From Granulicella paludicola (lineage in GTDB: Bacteria; Acidobacteriota; Terriglobia; Terriglobales; Acidobacteriaceae), in contig NZ_JAGSYC010000016.1 of NCBI RefSeq assembly GCF_025685545.1, positions 1 through 64,000 of the forward strand: a DNA stretch of 64,000 nt. The letters are read 5' to 3'. Under the pieces are notes generated by a model that was not told the origin of the DNA, ran no database searches, and was given only the letters and a program-made list of their open reading frames with translations. Shown piece after piece: positions 3,277 through 53,526 of this stretch. The translations under genes and the position numbers were made by a program. Positions within the stretch are counted from its first letter, which is position 1. Each line of letters opens with the position of its first letter.

Positions 3277-5373
3277 ATGACCGAGAAGCACACACGCACC
3301 AGCCTCACAGGCCCCCAGGCCTCGCAGACCCCGGCAGTCGCACTGCAAACACCCGGCCTCACCGCGCGTATGGTCGCTGTCACTGCGACGCTCGCTTCCA
3401 TGGCGATTCTGCTGCTTGTTCCTGCCACGGCAGGAGCGCAGACCCCGGCCCAGCCGCGTTATCCGGTTCCGGGCGCAGGCTTTCCCTCGGCTCCCCAGCT
3501 GCAACTGCCGCAGATGCCGCAGCGCCCGGCCATCACAGCCAATGGCACGGTCATCGAAGACGTCATCGCCCGCATCAACGACCAGATCATCACGCGCAGC
3601 GAATATGAGCGCGCCCGCCTGCAGATGCTGCAGGACGCCGAGCAGCAGAAGGCCGATGAGTCCGCACTGCAGGACCACCTGAAGGATCTGCTGCGCGACA
3701 TGATCGACTCCGACCTGCTCATCTCCAAGGGCAAAGAGCTCGGCATCAGCTGCGATGCGGAAACCGTCCGCCAGCTCGACGACATCCGCAAGCAGAACCA
3801 CCTGCCGGATATGGAAGCTCTCGAAAAGGCCGCGGCCCAGCAGGGGGTTTCTTTTGAAGACTTCAAGCAGAACATCCGCAACCAGTGCATCCGCCAATCC
3901 GTTGTGCGTGAAGAGGTAGGTCGCCGTCTGCAGCCCACGCATGCTCAGGAAGAGGCTTACTACCAGGCGCACGCCAAGGAGTTCGAGGTTCCGGAGCAGA
4001 TCCACCTCAGCGAAATTCTGATCCCCACGCCGGAGAACGCGACCGATGCACAGATCGCTCAGGCCCAAGCGAAGGCCGATGAGGTTGTCGCCAAGCTCAA
4101 GGCTGGCGCAAACTTCGCCGACCTCGCCAAGGTCTCTTCGGGTGGTCCCACGGCTTCGGCTGGTGGCGACCTCGGCGACTTCAAGCGCGGGGCTCTCGGC
4201 AGCCAGCTTCTTGAAGACGCGACCTTCCCGCTTGCAGTCGGAGCGAATACGGCCCCGATCCGTACCCGCCAGGGCTTTGTCGTCCTCAAGGTCGACGCGC
4301 ACCAGGCCGCAGGCGTTCCGCCCATGGCTCAAGTCGAAGACCAGCTGCAGCAGGCCATCTATATGGACCAGCTTCAGCCTGCGTTACGCGCGTATCTGAC
4401 TAAGGCCCGCGGTGAAGCCTACATGGAGATCGCTCCCGGCTTCGTCGATACGGGTTCGGCCACGAAGACCAACAATTCGAACTTCGCCTACACGGCTTAC
4501 TCCGCACCCGCTGTGAAGAAGAAGATCCAGAATAAGCAGCGTGCGGAGCAGGAGCGCGCAGCGAAGGCGCAGGCAGCTCTGGCAGCGGCTCGCGCTCGCG
4601 TTGCTGAAAAGCAGCAGGCCAAGGCTGAAGCCGACAAGGAGAAACTCTCCGGCGGCAAGCGTGATGTCTCCGGCAAGCAGCCGAAGCGGAAGCGAATTCC
4701 TCGCGAGAAGATTCGCTACGGTCAAGCTCCTCGGAACTCACTGCCGACGGCAACCACCGTTACGGCGACCGAAGCAGGCGCTCCGCTGGCTGGTCAAGCA
4801 GCGGGCGTAGCGATGGCTCCTACGGAGTCCATCACCTCGATCACCACCGGAACGGGTGCAGAGCCCGAGTCCACCAGCGATAACGCTGATGCGTTGGCTC
4901 CGGTCGAGGGCCAGACGAAGAAGACACGCTTCTCCGGTACGCAGACCAAGGCCGAAGTCGATCGCGCCAATGCCAAGCTCTCCAAGGCAGAGACGAAGGC
5001 GACCATTCGTCCCGTCGCTGCAACGCACGAGGCCACGGCAGACGAGAAGGCCCGCTCTGGCCCGCTAGGTCTGAACGGCGATCAGGTCAAGAAGGTCAAG
5101 AAGAAGAAGGTCAAAGACGCTCCGAAGTCCCGTCTGCAGGCGCAGCCCGAGAAGCCAGTAGAAAAGGCTGCTCCGATCGCGCCGACCGTCAACCCGCTCG
5201 TCACCGGCGGATCGACGACCTCGGCACCGAAGAAGGATGCGCCGAGCTCGGACAACACGACGCTGCCCTCTGCTGCCCCCACGGCTCCTGGCGCCTCACC
5301 TGCCGGGCAGCCGATTCCGGCAGCCACCTCGGCCGAACCCAACCAGCCCGCAACGACGCCGGCTCCCCACTAG
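3277..5373 (+). CDS. SurA-like parvulin peptidyl-prolyl isomerase with long Lys/Ala/Pro-rich tail
   Basis: Periplasmic folding factor, 698 aa. A hydrophobic signal segment lies at residues 33-54 and ends in TAGAQ, a plausible signal-peptidase site. A SurA N-terminal helical domain covers about 85-220, and one parvulin (PpiC-type) domain about 230-350, starting QIHLSEILIP and including GGDLGDFKRG. SurA of proteobacteria has two parvulin domains and about 430 residues; here only one is visible and the last 330 residues are a low-complexity, Lys/Ala/Thr/Pro-rich tail with no recognisable domain. The tail begins around VKKKIQNKQRAEQ. The ATG at 3277 is supported by AAGGA; an internal ATG at 3370 directly before the signal core is possible. 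Confidence 0.85.
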   Translation: MTEKHTRTSLTGPQASQTPAVALQTPGLTARMVAVTATLASMAILLLVPATAGAQTPAQPRYPVPGAGFPSAPQLQLPQMPQRPAITANGTVIEDVIARINDQIITRSEYERARLQMLQDAEQQKADESALQDHLKDLLRDMIDSDLLISKGKELGISCDAETVRQLDDIRKQNHLPDMEALEKAAAQQGVSFEDFKQNIRNQCIRQSVVREEVGRRLQPTHAQEEAYYQAHAKEFEVPEQIHLSEILIPTPENATDAQIAQAQAKADEVVAKLKAGANFADLAKVSSGGPTASAGGDLGDFKRGALGSQLLEDATFPLAVGANTAPIRTRQGFVVLKVDAHQAAGVPPMAQVEDQLQQAIYMDQLQPALRAYLTKARGEAYMEIAPGFVDTGSATKTNNSNFAYTAYSAPAVKKKIQNKQRAEQERAAKAQAALAAARARVAEKQQAKAEADKEKLSGGKRDVSGKQPKRKRIPREKIRYGQAPRNSLPTATTVTATEAGAPLAGQAAGVAMAPTESITSITTGTGAEPESTSDNADALAPVEGQTKKTRFSGTQTKAEVDRANAKLSKAETKATIRPVAATHEATADEKARSGPLGLNGDQVKKVKKKKVKDAPKSRLQAQPEKPVEKAAPIAPTVNPLVTGGSTTSAPKKDAPSSDNTTLPSAAPTAPGASPAGQPIPAATSAEPNQPATTPAPH

Positions 5374-43945: not shown

Positions 43946-45169
43946 CTAATACTTCGGCAAGGACGTGTCGATCCGGTCTGCCCAAGCTGTAATGCCTCCG
44001 GCGAGGTTCTTTACGTTGGTAAAGCCTGCCGCCTTCAATGCGAGTGAGGCCTTCTGGCTGCGCGCTCCGGACTTGCACTGTAAAACGATCTCGGCATCTT
44101 TGGCGACAGGAATCTCGCTGATGCGCGCTTCGAGCGAGCCGAGCGGAATCTGCGGAACGCCGAGGTTGACGATGGCATACTCGTGCGGCTCGCGGACATC
44201 GAGCACGAAGGGTTGTGTGCCTGCGTCGCGGCGTGCCTTTAGCTCTTCGACTGACATCTGCGGGATGCCGTCGACGATGTTCGCTGAGGCGTCGACTTTA
44301 CCGTGACTGGAGACCTCGAGCGGGCCGACTGCGGCCGGAGGAGCGATGCCGCAGAACTGGTCGTAGTCGATGAGTTCCTTGATCTCGTGCGTGCCGCAGA
44401 CGGGGCAATCGGGGTTCTTACGCAGCTTGAGGGTGCGGAAGTTCATGCCGAGAGCGTCGACCAACAAGAGGCGACCGATCAACGGTTCTCCGATTCCCAA
44501 GATGAGCTTGATGACTTCGGTAGCCTGTATGACGCCGACGAGGCCGGGGAGGATGCCGAGGACGCCGCCTTCCGCACAGGAGGGGACGAGGCCCGGCGGC
44601 GGCGGTTCGGGGTAGAGGCAGCGATAGCAGGGACCTTCCTCGGTGGCGAAGACGCTGGCCTGACCTTCGAAGCGGAAGATGCTGCCGTAAGCGTTAGGCT
44701 TGCCGGTGAGTACGCAGGCGTCGTTGACGAGGTAACGAGTCTGGAAGTTGTCGGTGCCGTCGGCGATGACGTCGTATTCCTTAAAGATCTCAAGCGCGTT
44801 GGCTGAAGTGAGCATGGTGTTGTGCTTCACGACGTTCACGTTCTTGTTGAGGCCCTTGAGCATGATCTCTGCGGAATCGACCTTGAGCTTGCCCACGGTG
44901 GACTGCGAGTGGATGATCTGGCGCTGCAGGTTGGATTCATCGACGACATCGAAATCGACGAGACCGATGGTGCCGACGCCCGCTGCGGTGAGATACAGTG
45001 CGAGCGGAGCGCCCAGGCCTCCGGTCCCGACGCAAAGAACCTTGGCGGCCTTCAGCTTCTGCTGACCTTCCATGCCGACTTCGGGCAGGATGAGGTGGCG
45101 GGAGTAACGGGCAATCTCTTCGTTGGAGAGCGTGGGGAGGGCTGCGGGATGATCGAGAGTGGCTGGCAT
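43946..45169 (-). CDS. MoeB/MoeZ-type sulfur-carrier adenylyltransferase/sulfurtransferase with rhodanese domain
   Basis: 407 aa fusion. The ThiF/MoeB domain (about 14-270) has the ATP-binding VGTGGLGAPLALYL, the Arg finger RQIIHSQSTVGKLKV, DGTDNFQTRYL and two CxxC zinc pairs (CYRC, CPVC). The rhodanese domain (about 305-405) has the active-site loop CKSGAR with Cys365. Such MoeBR/MoeZ proteins adenylate the C-terminal Gly of a ubiquitin-like carrier and then transfer sulfur to make a thiocarboxylate. In actinobacteria MoeZ serves CysO and MoaD. A CysO-like carrier is encoded 2.3 kb away and CysM and Mec 7-8 kb away. Confidence 0.92.
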   Translation of the reverse strand: MPATLDHPAALPTLSNEEIARYSRHLILPEVGMEGQQKLKAAKVLCVGTGGLGAPLALYLTAAGVGTIGLVDFDVVDESNLQRQIIHSQSTVGKLKVDSAEIMLKGLNKNVNVVKHNTMLTSANALEIFKEYDVIADGTDNFQTRYLVNDACVLTGKPNAYGSIFRFEGQASVFATEEGPCYRCLYPEPPPPGLVPSCAEGGVLGILPGLVGVIQATEVIKLILGIGEPLIGRLLLVDALGMNFRTLKLRKNPDCPVCGTHEIKELIDYDQFCGIAPPAAVGPLEVSSHGKVDASANIVDGIPQMSVEELKARRDAGTQPFVLDVREPHEYAIVNLGVPQIPLGSLEARISEIPVAKDAEIVLQCKSGARSQKASLALKAAGFTNVKNLAGGITAWADRIDTSLPKY

Positions 45170-46267: not shown

Positions 46268-47443
46268 TTGCGAGTTCATGTTCTTACGTTGGTTGCATTG
46301 GCGGGATGTATCTCCGCGGGTGGACAGATGGCTGCGCCACGGCCGCCGATGGGCTGGAACAGCTGGAACCATTTTGCCGAGCATGTGACGGATGCGGATG
46401 TACGGTCTGCTGCCGATGCGCTGGTGAGCACGGGCATGAAGGACGCCGGGTATATCTACGTGAATATGGATGACACCTGGCAGGGCAAGCGCGATTCGCA
46501 GGGAGTGCTGCATCCGAACGAGCGCTTTCCTGATATGAAGGCGCTGGGGGACTATGTTCACTCCAAGGGGCTGAAGTTCGGGATCTATTCGTCGCCGGGA
46601 GCGAAGACCTGCGGCGGCTATGCAGGGAGCCTGGGGCATGAGGAGCAGGACGCGAAGATGTATGCCGAGTGGGGCGTCGATTACTTGAAGTATGATTTGT
46701 GCTCGATGCAGGACCAGATGGCCGATCTGCGCGAGGCACATCCTGAGTCGCCGATGGCGGAGTACGAGATGATGATCGGCGCGTTCAAGAAGATGGGGGA
46801 CGCGTTGAAGGCCACGGGCAGGCCGATCGTCTATAGCCTTTGTCAGTATGGGATGGATGAGCCGTGGCGCTTCGGGCCGGGCGTGGGTGGCTCGATGTGG
46901 CGCACGACCGACGACATCAACGACACCTACCAGCGCATGATGACGATTGCGTATGGACAGGCGGGACTGGGCAAATATGCCGGGCCGGGGCATTGGAACG
47001 ACCCGGACATGCTGGAGGTCGGCAACGGTGGTATGAACGCGGATGAATACCGCACGCATATGAGCCTGTGGGCGGTGATGGGGGCTCCGCTGATTGCGGG
47101 GAATGATCTCAGCAAGATGTCGGATGTGACGAAGAGCATCCTGATGAACCGCGAGGTGATCGCGATCGATCAGGACGCGCTTGGCAAGGGCGGCGACCGC
47201 ACACTGCAACTCGGCGACTTCAGCGTGTGGGAGCGTCCGCTGAGCGGCAAGCGGCTGGCGATTGCGCTGGTGAACGTGTCGGTTTCGGGACGCGACATCC
47301 CGGTGAACCTGGCGCAGATCGGCGTACCGAAGGGCGCGAAGATCCACGACGTCTGGGGGAACAAAGAGCTTCGTCCCGTTCAAGGTGTGCTGAACGAGCG
47401 CTTCCCAGGACATGGGGTGATACTGCTGATTGTGTCGGAGTAG
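46268..47443 (+). CDS. Glycoside hydrolase family 27 alpha-galactosidase
   Basis: 391 aa secreted enzyme: signal peptide about 1-20, then the GH27 start PRPPMGWNSWNHF. The catalytic nucleophile Asp is in YLKYDLCS and the acid/base Asp in GHWNDPDMLEVGN. CGGYAGSLGHEEQDAKMYAEWGVD is also typical in part. A small C-terminal beta domain ends the protein. It releases alpha-galactose from oligosaccharides or galactomannans. Starts with TTG at 46268; AGGAGAG at 46257-46263 supports this. Confidence 0.93.
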   Translation: MRVHVLTLVALAGCISAGGQMAAPRPPMGWNSWNHFAEHVTDADVRSAADALVSTGMKDAGYIYVNMDDTWQGKRDSQGVLHPNERFPDMKALGDYVHSKGLKFGIYSSPGAKTCGGYAGSLGHEEQDAKMYAEWGVDYLKYDLCSMQDQMADLREAHPESPMAEYEMMIGAFKKMGDALKATGRPIVYSLCQYGMDEPWRFGPGVGGSMWRTTDDINDTYQRMMTIAYGQAGLGKYAGPGHWNDPDMLEVGNGGMNADEYRTHMSLWAVMGAPLIAGNDLSKMSDVTKSILMNREVIAIDQDALGKGGDRTLQLGDFSVWERPLSGKRLAIALVNVSVSGRDIPVNLAQIGVPKGAKIHDVWGNKELRPVQGVLNERFPGHGVILLIVSE

Positions 47444-47492
47444 AGATGCGGCTAAGAGGGTCGCCGCGGGTCGCATGGCGACCGCCTCTTGC

Positions 47493-47795
47493 CTAGAGGC
47501 AACAACAGGGACAACAGAAAGCGCTGCCGCCGGCGATAGAAGGGATGATGGTGAGTTCGTCGTTCGCGGTGGTCGCGGTTGCCTCGCCTGCGGGCAGGTA
47601 GCGGACGTCTTCGTCGTTCAGGTAGACGTTGACGAAGGAGCGCAGCTTGCCTTCCGGCGTGAAGAGATGCTGCTGCATGGCGGGGAATGCGGTGGTCAGC
47701 GCGGTCAGCGCGTCGGTAACGGTGGCGGCTTCGACCGAAACAGTGGCCTGCTTATCGGTAAAGGCGCGCAGCGGTGTGGGAATGTGAATCTGCAT
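47493..47795 (-). CDS. CysO/MoaD-like sulfur-carrier protein with Cys-rich C-terminal cap
   Basis: 100 aa, ubiquitin-like fold. Residues 50-65 (KLRSFVNVYLNDEDVR) closely resemble mycobacterial CysO, the carrier whose C-terminal thiocarboxylate gives sulfur to O-phosphoserine for cysteine. The functional end of the family is Gly-Gly; here Gly89-Gly90 is followed by ten extra residues, SAFCCPCCCL, five of them Cys. The frame was re-read from the DNA and the TAG at 47493 is clean. Activation must therefore need cleavage after Gly90, a job for a JAMM protease such as the one at 52073. The start at 47795 has GGAG upstream. Single gene, flanked by GH27 and a TonB receptor. Confidence 0.88.
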   Translation of the reverse strand: MQIHIPTPLRAFTDKQATVSVEAATVTDALTALTTAFPAMQQHLFTPEGKLRSFVNVYLNDEDVRYLPAGEATATTANDELTIIPSIAGGSAFCCPCCCL

Positions 47796-47904: not shown

Positions 47905-50900
47905 TTAGAACTCCAGACGAAGAGACCCTTGCAGAACGCGGGCCGATTGGTCAGCGCCGTTAGGAGTTATGGTACCCGGAATGGCACCAAACTCCTGCGG
48001 ATTGGCCACCAGGCTCATGTTGTTCTGGAAGCTTGGTGGCGCGAAGTTGGGATGGTTGAGAGCGTTGAAGGCGTCCGCCCGGAACTTCAGGTTGAGCTTG
48101 TCTGGAACAACGGTGAAGGTTTTTCCAAGACCGAGGTCAAGAAGGAAGAACCCGGGACCACGGAGGTTATTGCGTGCTCCGAATTGGAAGCCTACAGGGG
48201 CGACATAGTCATTGAAGGCTTTGGAGCTGTCTTTGAACGCCGTGACCACGCCGCTTGATTGCTTCGTGACCTTGGCTTTCATATCGCCGATGTTGCCGAC
48301 GAGTATGGCGGGGTCTTCGTTGGAGTAGCTCATGAGGAAGGCCAGCGAGTTGGCCATATAAGGCAAACCGGTGTGCCAGGTGGGTACGCCGCTGATCTCC
48401 CAACCTCCGATAGCCTCGTTTGCCCACCACGGAATCTTGGCGGCAAAGTCGCGACCGCGACCGAAGGGCAGTTGGTAGAGGAATGTGCCATTGACGTAGT
48501 TGGTCACGTCAAAGTCAGAGTTCCCGCGGCAGATACGAGGGCGGAGGATATCGCAGAGGAAGCCGTATCCGCCGTAAGCGTAGGAGTTGGCTTTTTGCGA
48601 GACGTTGTCGATCGAATGGGACCAGGTGTAGTTGATATCGAACTGCAGTCCGTGACCGGCGTTCTTATGGATGGTGGTGAGCAGGCCATTGTAGTCGGAG
48701 AAGCCGCCGTCTGTGAAGAAGGTGTTCTCCGAGAACTGCGAAGCCATGCCGACGTTAGCGGGCAGCAGGCCGAACTGAGACATTAATTCGACGGTATCTG
48801 CGACGTCGCCACGTGCCGGGTAAGGCGCGAAGTTGGCCGCGATGTAACCGGTGTTCGTGACGCCGGTTCCGTTGGGATTGAGCACATTCTCGAAGAAAGG
48901 CTGTGCTGGAGCTGTGGTGGGGTCAGCGGTTGGGTGCTGGCGCAACCATGTAGTGAGGTTCGCCATGGCCTGGCTCAGCATCTGGCCGGAGGCCTTATCC
49001 GGGAAATCGATCAACTGCTCTGCATCCGCCTGACCCAGAAGGCGGCGTCCAAGGCGGTTGACGTAGCTCATCTTGAGGATGAAGCCGCCTTTGAACTGCT
49101 GCTCGATGCCGAAGTTGAACATCATGTTGTAGGGGGTTGGCAGGTTGCGGTCGACGGTAATGTTGAATGCGCCGCCTTGCGCGAGTCCGCAGGGGCCGCT
49201 CGCGCCGCCAGCGACACCGTTGCAGTTGGGGTCTCCAGGCCCAATGAACGGAGCGTAGGGCTTGGTGATGGCCGGCGCGGTGGGTCCTCCAGGGGCGGGA
49301 TTGGAGAGTGAAGTGAAGCGTGGATTGTTGAGCAGGGAGAGGTACGCGGAGGATTGCGTTGCCGTTCCCGGGAGACCGAAGTTGACCGAACCCGAGCTCT
49401 GGAACAGGTAGGAGTAGCTCGCCTGCTCCTGTAGCAGCGCGTTGATGATGGTTTCGTCGTAGACCAGACCGGCGCCGCCATTGATAACCAGCTTGCGGTC
49501 TGCGGTGGGCGTCCAGGCAAAGGCCACGCGGGGAGCGAAGTCCTTGTTGTCTGGGGCGTAGTAGTTCGGTCCGTTGTTCTTCTTTCCACCCAGAGCGTAG
49601 GTGATGTACGGGACAGGGGCCGTGCCGCCGGGCAGTGAGTTCGCACCTCCGACGCCAGCTGCGCTCTGTGCGATGCGGGCGTTCATGAAGTCCTTGAAGC
49701 TTTCGCTCTGGACAGACTCGATGCCATGGATCTCATAAGGCACCGTGAAGTTCTGGTAACGCAGGCCGTAGGTAAGGGTGAAGGTTGGTGTGACCTTCCA
49801 GGTGTCCGAAAAGTAGAACTCGGTGGTGTAGTACTTGAAGGTAGTCTGGAGACCGCTGCCCGCAGGTTGAACGGCGGCGGCGTTATTGTAGTTCCAGGTT
49901 TCACTGGCGCTGCCAAAGCGACCGAGCGCGTACACAAAGGCCGAGTCATAGATCGTGGCGCTGGTCTGAGTGACATCCAGATCGTTGGGGCGGAAGTTCC
50001 AGTTGCTGGAACCGTTCGCAGGCAGTCCCAGTACGCCACCACCGAGGCCGATGTTGGAGCCGGTGAAATCGCTAAGCGTGGTGTAGTGGGGGGACGGGTA
50101 CTTAAAGTCTCCACCAATCGAAAGAGTGTGCTTGCCTTTCTGCCAGGCGAAGTCATCACGAACGATGGGTATGGGGAAGTACTCCTTCGAGCCGCCTGGA
50201 TTGGCGTAGATGTTGTCCAGGAAGGTTCCACCGGTGGGGTCACCGTCATAGGAGAATTCATTCGGGCTGGTCGGCGCATAGGCGACGGTATTGCTGATAT
50301 TCGCCACCGTCGCACCCCAGATGAGCGAGTTCGACTTGTTCGAGCCAATGGCCCAGTTCCAACCGACGACCCAGGCATGGCTGGTGTCAAGTGCGGGATA
50401 CGTTTCAGGATCGTTCCCGAACTGGGGAAGGGCAGAAACATGATTGATCTTGTTGTAGGTGACGCGGCCGAAGAACGACTGCTTCGACGTCAGCTTCAGA
50501 TCCAACCGGCCTACATAGTTATTTTCCTTGTACGGTGTGGGGGAGTTGAAGCGGTAGCCAGCTGTATTCGCCAGATCGCCAACGGTCGTATCGTTTGGAG
50601 TGGGGTAGCGAGCGCCAGTGACGCTGAGCAGGGCCTGGTCGAAACCCTTATTCTGCGGGTCGAAGCCAGCCACCTGAGCGGCAGTGATGCTGTCTTTTGT
50701 GGCGCTGCTGATATTCGTGAAGTAGGTGATGTTTTGATTCTGGAAGGAGGTAGTGGGAACGGTGCGCACTGCCTGAGCTGCTACCGTATCGCGGCGGCCG
50801 TTATAGTCAAAAAAGAAGAAGAGCCGGTCTTTGCCGCTGAAGAGATGCGGGATGGTGACAGGACCGCCAAAGTTGCCGCCAAACTGGTTGCGGATGAGCG

Positions 50901-51726
50901 GCGAACGTCCGATGCCATCAAAGTTGTTGAACCACTCGTTGGCTTCGAGGTCGGTATCGCGGTGGTACTCGTTGATGTTGCCGTGGAACTTGTTGGTGCC
51001 GCTCTTGGTGACGAGGCTGAACTGGGCGCCACCGCCAGCGTTGTCACCCGAAGTCATACCGGCGACTGTGCCGCGAAATTCCTGCACAGAGTCGACCGGT
51101 GCATTGCCTGTGATGATGCCGAACGTACCGAATGCCTGATCTGTAACGTCTAGACCGTCTAGGGTGATGCCATTCTGATCGGTACGTCCGCCTGTCGCGT
51201 TACCATCCTGGGTCATGCCGGGCTCGGTAGTGAAGAGGGCAGCCGGTGAGTCGCGGAAGCTGACGGGCAGTTCATTGAGGTCCTGCACCTGGACGCTGTT
51301 GCCGATGGTGGCGTCCGTAGTGTTCAGGGTGACGTCCTGATTGGCGGCGGAGACTGAGACGGTGGTCTCGACCGAGCCGGCCGGTAGAGCCACATTCTGC
51401 GTACGGGTTGTGGAGACGTTCAGGTAAAGCCCCGTCAGCTCAACGGTGGTAAAGCCGGAGTGGCTGACCGTCTCCTTGTATCCAGGACCGGGCGCAACGT
51501 TCGTAAACGTATAAGAGCCGGAGCTGTTACTGACGGCCTTGTACACCTTGCCGGTTGCAGTGCTTGTCAGCACGACGTTGGCACCGCTGATGACGGCACC
51601 GGTGGAGTCAGTTACCGTTCCGGTCATTCCCGACGCTGATTCCTGAGCGGTAAGGATGGTGGGGGCGAACAGAAGGGTGGCAGATAAAGCTGCAGATACA
51701 CATGTGCCTACGAGTTTTCGTGTCAA
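47905..51726 (-). CDS. Oar-type TonB-dependent receptor
   Basis: 1273 aa. Signal peptide about 1-28 (ILTAQES), carboxypeptidase-regulatory domain about 32-115 (GTVTDSTGAVISGANVVL), plug about 120-240 (PVSFRDSPAALFTTEPG, GITLDGLDVTD) and a large barrel with the C-terminal strand QGSLRLEF. Typical of acidobacterial polymer-uptake receptors. The start is a TTG with AGGAG 7 bp upstream. The nearby alpha-galactosidase suggests, but does not prove, a carbohydrate substrate. Confidence 0.9.
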   Translation of the reverse strand: MTRKLVGTCVSAALSATLLFAPTILTAQESASGMTGTVTDSTGAVISGANVVLTSTATGKVYKAVSNSSGSYTFTNVAPGPGYKETVSHSGFTTVELTGLYLNVSTTRTQNVALPAGSVETTVSVSAANQDVTLNTTDATIGNSVQVQDLNELPVSFRDSPAALFTTEPGMTQDGNATGGRTDQNGITLDGLDVTDQAFGTFGIITGNAPVDSVQEFRGTVAGMTSGDNAGGGAQFSLVTKSGTNKFHGNINEYHRDTDLEANEWFNNFDGIGRSPLIRNQFGGNFGGPVTIPHLFSGKDRLFFFFDYNGRRDTVAAQAVRTVPTTSFQNQNITYFTNISSATKDSITAAQVAGFDPQNKGFDQALLSVTGARYPTPNDTTVGDLANTAGYRFNSPTPYKENNYVGRLDLKLTSKQSFFGRVTYNKINHVSALPQFGNDPETYPALDTSHAWVVGWNWAIGSNKSNSLIWGATVANISNTVAYAPTSPNEFSYDGDPTGGTFLDNIYANPGGSKEYFPIPIVRDDFAWQKGKHTLSIGGDFKYPSPHYTTLSDFTGSNIGLGGGVLGLPANGSSNWNFRPNDLDVTQTSATIYDSAFVYALGRFGSASETWNYNNAAAVQPAGSGLQTTFKYYTTEFYFSDTWKVTPTFTLTYGLRYQNFTVPYEIHGIESVQSESFKDFMNARIAQSAAGVGGANSLPGGTAPVPYITYALGGKKNNGPNYYAPDNKDFAPRVAFAWTPTADRKLVINGGAGLVYDETIINALLQEQASYSYLFQSSGSVNFGLPGTATQSSAYLSLLNNPRFTSLSNPAPGGPTAPAITKPYAPFIGPGDPNCNGVAGGASGPCGLAQGGAFNITVDRNLPTPYNMMFNFGIEQQFKGGFILKMSYVNRLGRRLLGQADAEQLIDFPDKASGQMLSQAMANLTTWLRQHPTADPTTAPAQPFFENVLNPNGTGVTNTGYIAANFAPYPARGDVADTVELMSQFGLLPANVGMASQFSENTFFTDGGFSDYNGLLTTIHKNAGHGLQFDINYTWSHSIDNVSQKANSYAYGGYGFLCDILRPRICRGNSDFDVTNYVNGTFLYQLPFGRGRDFAAKIPWWANEAIGGWEISGVPTWHTGLPYMANSLAFLMSYSNEDPAILVGNIGDMKAKVTKQSSGVVTAFKDSSKAFNDYVAPVGFQFGARNNLRGPGFFLLDLGLGKTFTVVPDKLNLKFRADAFNALNHPNFAPPSFQNNMSLVANPQEFGAIPGTITPNGADQSARVLQGSLRLEF

Positions 51727-52072: not shown

Positions 52073-52519
52073 TTAGGCGATCTCGAGGGCTTGGGTAGCG
52101 AAGGCCTTGTCCTCTTCGGTTGTGCCGGTCAGGAGGAAGCTGTTTGTAATCTGGGCGGTGCCTGTGGTTTTGTCGCCGTCGACCGAGGTGATGACGTAGG
52201 CGCAGCCGAACCAGTGGGCTTCGGCGAAGTCGGTGGGGGACCACTGCGCCGGGTGGTCGGGGTGCGAGTGGTAGAAGCCGACGATGTCGAGACCTAGCTT
52301 GCGGCCTTCGCGCTGCGCGGCGATCAATTCCTGCGGCGCAATGTGGTATCGGTTGTGTGCCGAGTCGGTGCGGGTGTTGCCTGCGCGCAGCAGGTGCGAG
52401 ACGGTGAGGTTTTGCTCGTCCGCGGTACCGAGCATGATGCCGCAGCACTCGTTGGGGTAGGTCTCCTCGCCGTGGGCGCGGAGCTGGTCGTAGAGGGCCT
52501 GGGTGATGGTGAGGGACAC
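52073..52519 (-). CDS. JAMM/Mpn+ metalloprotease (Mec type)
   Basis: 148 aa. The Zn site is complete: Glu24 in PNECCG, His84 and His86 in FYHSHPDHP, Ser94 and Asp97 in SPTD. In mycobacteria Mec cleaves the CysO-cysteine adduct to release cysteine; the same family trims capped sulfur carriers in other bacteria. Here it may do both, as the local CysO homologue is capped. It starts with GTG, overlapping the cysM stop by one base, with GGAGG at 52526-52530; the longer open frame upstream is inside cysM and is rejected. Confidence 0.9.
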   Translation of the reverse strand: MSLTITQALYDQLRAHGEETYPNECCGIMLGTADEQNLTVSHLLRAGNTRTDSAHNRYHIAPQELIAAQREGRKLGLDIVGFYHSHPDHPAQWSPTDFAEAHWFGCAYVITSVDGDKTTGTAQITNSFLLTGTTEEDKAFATQALEIA

Positions 52520-53526
52520 TAGCGGCCTCCGAGCTTCTGGTGCAGGGTGATGTCGGCGGCGATGGGGTCGGCCCAGAATCGTTCGCTGAGGTACTTGTCG
52601 GCGGAGTCGCAAAGGATGGTCACGACTGTTGCTTCGCGGCCTGCGGCTGCTTCGGCTTCGGCTACATCAAGCGCGGCAACTGCGGCGGCGGCGGCAGAGA
52701 CACCCACGAGGATGCCTTGGTTGCGGCCAAGCCACTTGGCCATGGCGTAAGCCCGCTCTGTGGCCATGTCTATGTTCCAGTCGGCGAGCTTGTCGTCGTA
52801 GATGGGAGGCACGATGGCCGTGGCCATATGCTTAAGTCCTTCGAGGCCGTTGAAGGGCGAGTCCGGCTGCATGGAGATGCACTTGATGTTCGGGTTGAGC
52901 TCGCGCAGGCGGCGCGTGGTGCCCATGAAGGTGCCGGAGGTGCCGAGGGCGGAGACGAAGTGCGTGACGGTGCCTTCGGTCTGCTGCCAGATCTCGTTGC
53001 CCGTGGTGTTGTAGTGGGCGCGCCAGTTGTTGTCGTTGCCGTACTGGTCGGCGTAGAAGAACTTCTCCGGGTGCTCGGCGGCGACCTGGCGGGCCATGCG
53101 GATCGCACCGTCAGAGCCGTCGGCGGGGTCCGTGAAGATCACTTCGGCACCGTAGGCCGAGAGGATGCGCTTGCGCTCGACCGAGACGTTTGAGGGCATG
53201 CAGAGCTGCACAGGGAAGCTAAGTGCCGCGCCGAGCATCGCGTAGGCGATACCGGTGTTGCCGGAGGTGGCGTCGAGCAGGGCCTTGCTGCCTTTGCCCG
53301 CGCTGCCGGGGCCGAGAGTGCCAGCGGCCATGGCGGACTTGACGATGTTGGAGGCCGCGCGGTCTTTCACGCTGCCTCCGGGGTTCATCCACTCGGCTTT
53401 GCCGTAGATCTTCACACCCGGCAGGTGGGCGGAGAGGCGTTCGAGGCGGACGAGAGGCGTGTTGCCGATGCGGTCGAGGAGGGTGGTTCCGAGCTGCAGT
53501 GTTGCTTGTGCTGTCACTGTGGTCAT
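52519..53526 (-). CDS. cysM: Cysteine synthase, CysM type (PLP-dependent)
   Basis: 335 aa. PLP lysine Lys54 in GGSVKDRAA, substrate-loop TSGNTG at 87-92, and the phosphate-binding SALGTSGTFMGTTRRLRE. Mycobacterial CysM uses O-phosphoserine and CysO-thiocarboxylate rather than O-acetylserine and sulfide. The overlap with the Mec-type protease gene argues that this enzyme also works with a protein-bound sulfur donor. A start at 53526 fits the family; upstream frame is not conserved-looking. Confidence 0.9.
   Translation of the reverse strand: MTTVTAQATLQLGTTLLDRIGNTPLVRLERLSAHLPGVKIYGKAEWMNPGGSVKDRAASNIVKSAMAAGTLGPGSAGKGSKALLDATSGNTGIAYAMLGAALSFPVQLCMPSNVSVERKRILSAYGAEVIFTDPADGSDGAIRMARQVAAEHPEKFFYADQYGNDNNWRAHYNTTGNEIWQQTEGTVTHFVSALGTSGTFMGTTRRLRELNPNIKCISMQPDSPFNGLEGLKHMATAIVPPIYDDKLADWNIDMATERAYAMAKWLGRNQGILVGVSAAAAAVAALDVAEAEAAAGREATVVTILCDSADKYLSERFWADPIAADITLHQKLGGR
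52526..52530 (-). promoter_or_regulatory. Shine-Dalgarno site that fixes the mec GTG start
   Basis: GGAGG on the minus strand ends six bases before the GTG at 52519, inside the last codons of cysM. Confidence 0.7.

Follow-up and report, generated by a model that had tools for sequence, protein, structure and literature searches.

A capped sulfur carrier and its partner genes

The window (the whole stretch of 64,000 nucleotides from Granulicella paludicola that was analyzed) encodes a small sulfur carrier in which Gly-Gly is followed by ten further residues, five of them cysteines, raising the question of what such a tail is for. The gene is read from the minus strand, the plus strand of the same interval not being the carrier gene. 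The features that bear on this question are the following:

47493 to 47795, minus strand: CysO-type carrier gene, 100 amino acids plus a TAG stop, with the C-terminal end IIPSIAGGSAFCCPCCCL
47526 to 47795, minus strand: beta-grasp, CysO-like sulfur carrier body, residues 1 to 90, ending in Gly-Gly (Pfam, profile, and fold comparison)
47496 to 47525, minus strand: Cys-rich tail SAFCCPCCCL, with the Cys codons TGT TGT (CCC) TGT TGT TGC
47489 to 47502, minus strand: perfect inverted repeat TTGCCT-CT-AGGCAA (read directly and folded)
43946 to 45169, minus strand: MoeB (E1-like)-rhodanese fusion, 2.3 kb from cysO here and directly downstream of it in most relatives
46268 to 47443, plus strand: alpha-galactosidase-like gene, convergent to cysO and separating it from moeB, as also in the related genomes G007 and G013
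47905 to 51726, minus strand: large outer-membrane beta-barrel gene separating the JAMM gene from cysO; absent between these two genes in G007
52073 to 52519, minus strand: JAMM metalloprotease (Prok-JAB) with a GTG start and the residues E24 and H84-x-H86-x10-D97; presumed remover of the tail
52519 to 53526, minus strand: CysM-like PLP-dependent cysteine synthase, the CysM-type partner gene

The preliminary description of this DNA had called the protein a CysO-like carrier, capped beyond Gly-Gly, with MoeB-rhodanese, CysM, and JAMM partners nearby, and all of this was confirmed, the three partner genes lying on the minus strand. The carrier matches the Pfam ThiS family with 39.2 bits against a cut-off of 22.5 (1.1e-9), which places it among ThiS-family beta-grasp domains. 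A profile search of solved structures retrieved CysO of Mycobacterium tuberculosis (3dwg and 3dwm) and BexX/CysO of Amycolatopsis (4n6e), and 3dwg, 4n6e, and 3dwm were also the best Foldseek matches of the carrier model (3dwg, E 5e-9, TM 0.78/0.84). This AlphaFold model has a mean pLDDT of 92 to 97 for residues 1 to 80, taken in blocks of ten, and a pLDDT of <50 for residues 88 to 100. Gly-Gly (residues 89 and 90) is invariant across 27 aligned carrier homologues, though it is internal in the window protein, where residues 91 to 100 follow it (GG-SAFCCPCCCL; four TGT codons and one TGC). The closest relative found, in G007, has 91% identity to the carrier and the tail GG-ADCLCCCL; named matches include Granulicella sp. 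L46 (78%), Edaphobacter lichenicola, and Terriglobus roseus.

Capped carriers such as QbsE and HcyS likewise have residues after Gly-Gly and a JAMM partner. Their caps are short, whereas those of Terriglobia are either variable tails rich in Cys codons or, as described below, entire E1 fusions. In relatives of the window genome, the genes commonly follow the order cysM-JAMM-cysO-moeB on a single strand, and judged from these relatives, JAMM is a member of the same ancestral operon as the carrier. Its HxHx10D zinc motif, read directly, is intact in the window protein (P0004), and because a protease with this motif belongs to the ancestral carrier operon, we naturally infer from sequence that JAMM would trim the tail after Gly-Gly. 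The conserved operon itself is broken up in the window by the beta-barrel gene and the convergent alpha-galactosidase gene.

The carrier fold and sequence, CysM, JAMM, and the E1-rhodanese are shared with the protein-thiocarboxylate cysteine pathway of M. tuberculosis (CysO-CysM-Mec-MoeZ), as set out in the available text of PMC3227635. The M. tuberculosis carrier chain, however, stops at Gly-Gly (the profile runs to the last of its 93 residues), and the operon order seen here is a further difference. Four genes and the phylum are also shared with operon type 4c of Iyer et al. (2006; PMC1779556), which comprises a ThiS/MoaD carrier, E1-rhodanese, JAB, and a cysteine synthase and includes Solibacter usitatus. 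The release of fused carriers by JAB was already proposed there, and a Cys-rich tail does not appear in the available text of that paper.

Cys-rich tails recur across Terriglobia

A carrier homologue was found in 56 of 61 related genomes and in 271 of 299 genomes sampled from the class. From 291 loci with a carrier match, 234 distinct ones were kept, in which MoeB-rhodanese is fused or lies within 600 nt; the 57 rows left out comprise 31 without a MoeB-rhodanese match in the stretch (some of them paralogues), 5 with MoeB-rhodanese more than 600 nt away, 3 with unreadable tails, and 18 duplicates. The 234 loci consist of 207 non-fused homologues with tails of 0 to 50 residues (median of 5), 26 MoeB-rhodanese fusions, and L102, which has another long extension. 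In the 207, a set chosen on that basis, moeB-rhodanese lies no more than 600 nt 3' of cysO; they include L071, a fusion interrupted by a run of N, and 59 named loci, some labelled as other phyla. Family labels are restricted to the remaining genomes. The homologues are best-scoring matches and hence an uneven sample, in which genera g1 and g28 carry much weight.

Residues beyond Gly-Gly are present in 205 of the 207 homologues, and only L050 and L214 end exactly at Gly-Gly. This excludes stop-codon read-through or a sequencing error as the origin of the tail, the case in which homologues would have ended at Gly-Gly and the tail been found only here. Such a tail is not peculiar to the window protein, and Cys-rich tails recur in many Terriglobia genera: at least one Cys is found in 117 of the 207 tails, and at least two are found in 71. 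Cys makes up 17.3% of the 1,507 tail residues, against 2.8% in the three-frame translation of the following intergenic DNA; the second-largest excess is that of alanine (11.5 versus 8.7%). The carrier body is nearly devoid of Cys, with 3 Cys codons in 165 loci.

The cysteines are concentrated at the very end of the gene, with a peak at codons −2 to −4 relative to the stop, and in 18 of 59 genera the majority of loci have at least two Cys among the last six residues. A TAG stop closes 62 of the 117 tails with Cys, versus 22 of the 90 others. Among 23 loci of genus g1, at least two Cys are present in 19, one in two, and none in two; L052, whose tail also lacks Cys, was left out of this count. 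The typical g1 tail ends in CCR or CCCR behind a spacer of variable length, whereas family f5 has tails of the RCICS type, g28 has CCSCCPLL, TSCRL, and CCCCCCL, g21 has CCCC and CCS, and other tails hold a single C or a CICS pattern. What the alignment of homologues upheld is thus the tail and its Cys richness, but not a conserved number or spacing of cysteines. There are 0 to 6 per tail, variably spaced even within a genus, which differs from the fixed number and spacing of metallothionein-like proteins and is too variable for the defined metal or persulfide site that the preliminary description had considered.

The alternative to a tail is a fusion. MoeB-rhodanese follows Gly-Gly in frame at 26 of the 234 loci, and fusions of this kind include L066, L088, L097 to L099, L103, and L335. 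Of 16 loci newly retrieved from further classes of the phylum, 14 show such a fusion and the other two carry short, Cys-free tails. This suggests an old carrier-E1 fusion, the splitting of which gave rise to tails, an order of events that we infer. In L037, L104, and L108, the tails took up a common intergenic repeat (translated ...VIPSGARDPGFCL and VVPSGTSDLGFCL).

Reading frame and codon choice of the tail cysteines

Cys codons account for 260 of 1,503 codons in the frame of the tails, versus 35 and 36 of 1,503 when the same DNA is read in its two alternative frames. The enrichment is confined to the reading frame and is therefore not accounted for by an RNA sequence or repeat as such.

The choice between the two Cys codons is also uneven, the tails favoring TGT, a codon that these genomes avoid. 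In 165 loci, the TGT:TGC ratio is 195:51 in the tails versus 16:107 in the 5' part of moeB (odds ratio of 25.6). In loci with Cys tails, the ratio is 53:897 in MoeB-rhodanese, 45:222 in JAMM, and 20:207 in CysM, and with one locus per genome it is 53:860, 43:219, and 19:204, respectively. Among 93 Cys-Cys pairs in tails, 73 are TGT-TGT and none is TGC-TGC; in the control, the JAMM gene's own Cys-Cys pair at the same loci (99 pairs), 4 are TGT-TGT and 68 are TGC-TGC. The remaining tail codons that end in C or T end in T in 33% of cases, a weaker bias than that of Cys. TGT is the majority in 17 of 25 genera with at least two Cys codons, and single-Cys tails frequently use TGC.

The window genome holds a paralogous CysO-like carrier (L034/L328; G000:C20:189573-189866) that ends in GG-SR and lies directly behind a threonine-synthase-like PLP gene. 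In relatives, its tails are short and at times begin with Cys (TGC); Cys occurs at 9 of 23 loci, with 12 TGC codons and 3 TGT. Since these tails show the ordinary use of TGC, the TGT pattern is a feature of cysO in the cysM-JAMM-moeB operon. In the window genome, ThiS (L331; G000:C19:865561-865758) ends in GGG-MV rather than in Gly-Gly.

Selection therefore probably acts on the decoded UGU codon. A thiol role, a protease recognition signal, and a redox switch are all insensitive to which Cys codon is used, and TGT use against the operon's own codon habit is left unexplained by any of them. The redox block and the protease signal proposed in the preliminary description are not supported on this point, and its thiol-based readings as a whole are less likely than a codon-based one. 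Even without a mechanism, finding such a codon bias at the C-terminal end of a protein is unexpected and calls for an explanation.

RNA around the stop codon

In the window, the TAG stop (47493 to 47495) lies within and beside the loop of the inverted repeat, and folding predicts a second hairpin downstream of it. Hairpins also occupy this position in relatives. In all 17 sequences of family f5, the hairpin begins with the final base of TAG (mean z of −2.4). Its seven outer pairs are standard in 116 of 119 cells, versus 50 to 80 for shifted versions; one pair appears as U-G, C-G, and U-A, and the inner part is variable yet complementary. In g1, the 5' arm often consists of the Cys codons and the loop contains the stop (GTTGTCGC-stop-GCGAGAAC, with a loop of about 4 to 20 nt), and the hairpin at the stop of L170 reads TTGTTGTC-GTTA-GACAACAA. 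The hairpin z-scores of g1 and g31 rest on a set picked once the folds were known. Over all loci, the mean z for folding of the stop region is −0.88 with at least two Cys (71 loci), −0.52 with one (46 loci), and −0.09 with none (90 loci), a mild difference. An Rfam search of 12 loci with E values up to 1 returned no matching family and only 6 sub-threshold matches.

An excess of C over G in a bubble is the typical look of Rho sites. At loci with gaps of 60 to 600 nt, C minus G over the 60 nt past the stop is 0.128 with at least two Cys (n = 58) versus −0.028 with none (n = 19). The difference holds within family f1 (0.161 in 32 loci versus 0.00 in 9; p = 0.0002) and within f7 (0.083 in 6 versus −0.033 in 6; p = 0.006), and does not reach significance in f2 or f5, each of which has a single Cys-free locus. 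A bubble of the Rho-site type was also suggested for actinobacterial cys leaders in the available text of PMC1262725.

Other signals were sought in the gap between cysO and moeB. Sites resembling intrinsic terminators are rare there, in 3 of 56 gaps behind tails with at least two Cys, 0 of 26 with one, and 2 of 19 with none, and a ribosome positioned over the Cys codons leaves the accessibility predicted for the moeB start unchanged (0.50 to 0.53). Neither a general intrinsic terminator nor sequestration of the Shine-Dalgarno sequence is supported by these results.

The distance between cysO and moeB was also considered as a sign of regulation. The number of Cys correlates with the length of the gap over all loci (Spearman 0.56) and among genera (Fisher p = 0.0016, p-values other than those of within-family tests ignoring kinship). 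By family, the Spearman coefficient is 0.46 in f1, 0.63 in f7, −0.48 in f5, and 0.36 in f2 (not significant), and the association is gone once families are separated (CMH p = 0.77; 2,435 of 5,000 permutations). Cys-rich tails occur despite gaps of <60 nt in g4 (42 nt), g5 (57 nt), and g85 (22 to 37 nt), and g7, g10, g40, g41, and g42 have long gaps and no Cys. Spacing was accordingly abandoned as proof of regulation. Read-through of the stop codon into moeB was rejected as a general mechanism, since the gaps are distributed by length over all three frames, with an uninterrupted frame only in single cases, such as L024.

A possible cysteine sensor and its alternatives

Three features point to selection on decoded codons and not on thiols, and are best read as a cysteine-responsive, leader-peptide-like sensor: the enrichment of Cys in one frame only, the preference for TGT, and the hairpin and C-rich, G-poor stretch that follow many Cys tails. 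According to this proposal, the residues beyond Gly-Gly would be a disposable cap, cut off by the JAMM of the operon, and because JAMM would discard everything after Gly-Gly, the tail would be free to hold information in its codons. Across many Terriglobia, this information would be the in-frame UGU cluster just ahead of the cysO stop, acting as the Cys run does in a leader peptide. With charged tRNA-Cys in short supply, the ribosome would stall in the tail and mask the hairpin and the C-rich, G-poor, Rho-site-like RNA at and after the stop, so that the transcript would continue into the gene for MoeB-rhodanese, which loads sulfur onto the carrier. With ample Cys, the ribosome would depart and moeB would be cut off. 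The full mechanism, with the sensor upstream of moeB and moeB as its target, is put forward tentatively, as a plausible reading that falls somewhat short of an even chance.

In the window genome, the gene that follows cysO is the convergent alpha-galactosidase gene and not a regulated gene on the same strand. Since cysO and moeB are apart there, the element would be limited to acting on the end of the cysO transcript, or it would be a recent leftover. Tails are kept without an adjacent moeB, with 5 Cys in the window genome and 4 in G007; in G013, where an alpha-galactosidase gene also splits the pair, 1 Cys remains.

Actinobacteria have known or proposed leader peptides with Cys codons, according to the available text of PMC1262725 and PMC4633059, the former placing Cys-codon runs close to the stop codons of the leaders. 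As far as that text goes, the tails have in common with them an in-frame Cys run beside the stop, a position upstream of sulfur or cysteine genes, and the lack of an obvious terminator. The actinobacterial leaders, however, are short ORFs of their own that open the operon, whereas the run described here is the 3' end of a full-length, 90-residue carrier gene within an operon. The broader idea, that the 3' end of a structural gene serves as a Cys-codon leader for the next gene of its operon, with trimming freeing the codons and the splitting of the fusion perhaps having made room for them, is possible but still more tentative. If true, a sensor of the leader-peptide type would lie inside a real protein and be removed from it later, giving a new route to ribosome-mediated control within an operon in an abundant, little-studied soil phylum, and protease-capped, ubiquitin-like carriers would be able to use their cap for information. 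A literature search, mostly outside subscription journals, found no paper on Cys-rich tails of such carriers.

The cysteine residues themselves could matter instead, with a thiol-rich tail binding metal, carrying persulfide, or sensing oxidation and thereby gating processing by JAMM. The strict frame of the enrichment is what such a role would give, as is the retention of five Cys in the window genome after moeB had moved away. Yet Cys number and spacing vary even among members of one genus, and the TGT bias is not predicted, which leaves this reading unlikely. The persistence of tails where moeB is separated would also suit slow UGU codons that act with the stop hairpin to adjust the final stage of cysO translation or the mRNA 3' end, and with it the ratio of carrier to E1, with no sensing of Cys and no action on moeB. 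Hairpins on or directly after the stop agree with this, and the C-rich 3' stretch is also compatible with the formation of a transcript end. Slow codons of other amino acids would do as well, however, and only Cys is strongly enriched, so there is only a small chance that tuning of this kind is the explanation.

A neutral tail, in which TGT repeats came from slippage or were imposed by an RNA hairpin whose 5' arm they form, would account for the repeat-like runs of TGT TGT, for the Cys codons in the 5' arm in g1, and for the absorption of intergenic repeats by the tails of L037/L104 and L108. It is at odds with the strict frame dependence of the Cys codons and with the f5 RCICS tails, which are not repeats. 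CCR or CCC is moreover retained in species that lack the hairpin, with synonymous changes there (L018 and L065), and a by-product of this sort appears improbable. Least probable is that GG-Cys imitates the CysO-Cys intermediate that is hydrolyzed by JAMM (Mec), making the carrier a good substrate. Cys stands directly after Gly-Gly in 34 of the 207 tails, and the Cys of the paralogue tails (9 of 23 loci) is written in ordinary codons (TGC 12:TGT 3), as mimicry would allow; but A, S, T, and R are as frequent in that position, and long tails have their Cys near the stop and not near Gly-Gly.

Candidate stand-alone cysteine leaders elsewhere

Leaders with Cys runs were also sought outside cysO. 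Canestrari and others, cited in PMC13236596, reportedly described polycysteine short ORFs in 2020. In the window genome, 135 matches were obtained for a pattern of Cys runs preceding a stop, versus 211 for the reversed pattern; the four in-frame matches that were fetched terminate mere ORFs, with no recognizable sulfur gene nearby, and no other Cys leader emerged from them. Upstream of cysM, at least two Cys among the last six codons were found at 7 of 71 loci, versus 13 of 71 in antisense, and at least three were found at 2 versus 0. A Cys leader ahead of cysM was therefore rejected as a general arrangement. The motif LRCIC, searched for in 14 f5 genomes and the L091 genome, gave no convincing leader besides the cysO tails. 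L091 itself is a MAG labelled as Ignavibacteriae, outside the class, with the same operon. About 100 nt upstream of its cysM lies a short ORF (3395 to 3511, plus strand) that ends in MSLSLRCICCCCC (LRCICCCCC) and resembles the RCICS tails of f5. Judged by its sequence, this ORF is a candidate for a stand-alone cysteine leader peptide, which would make it a natural parallel of the classic kind.
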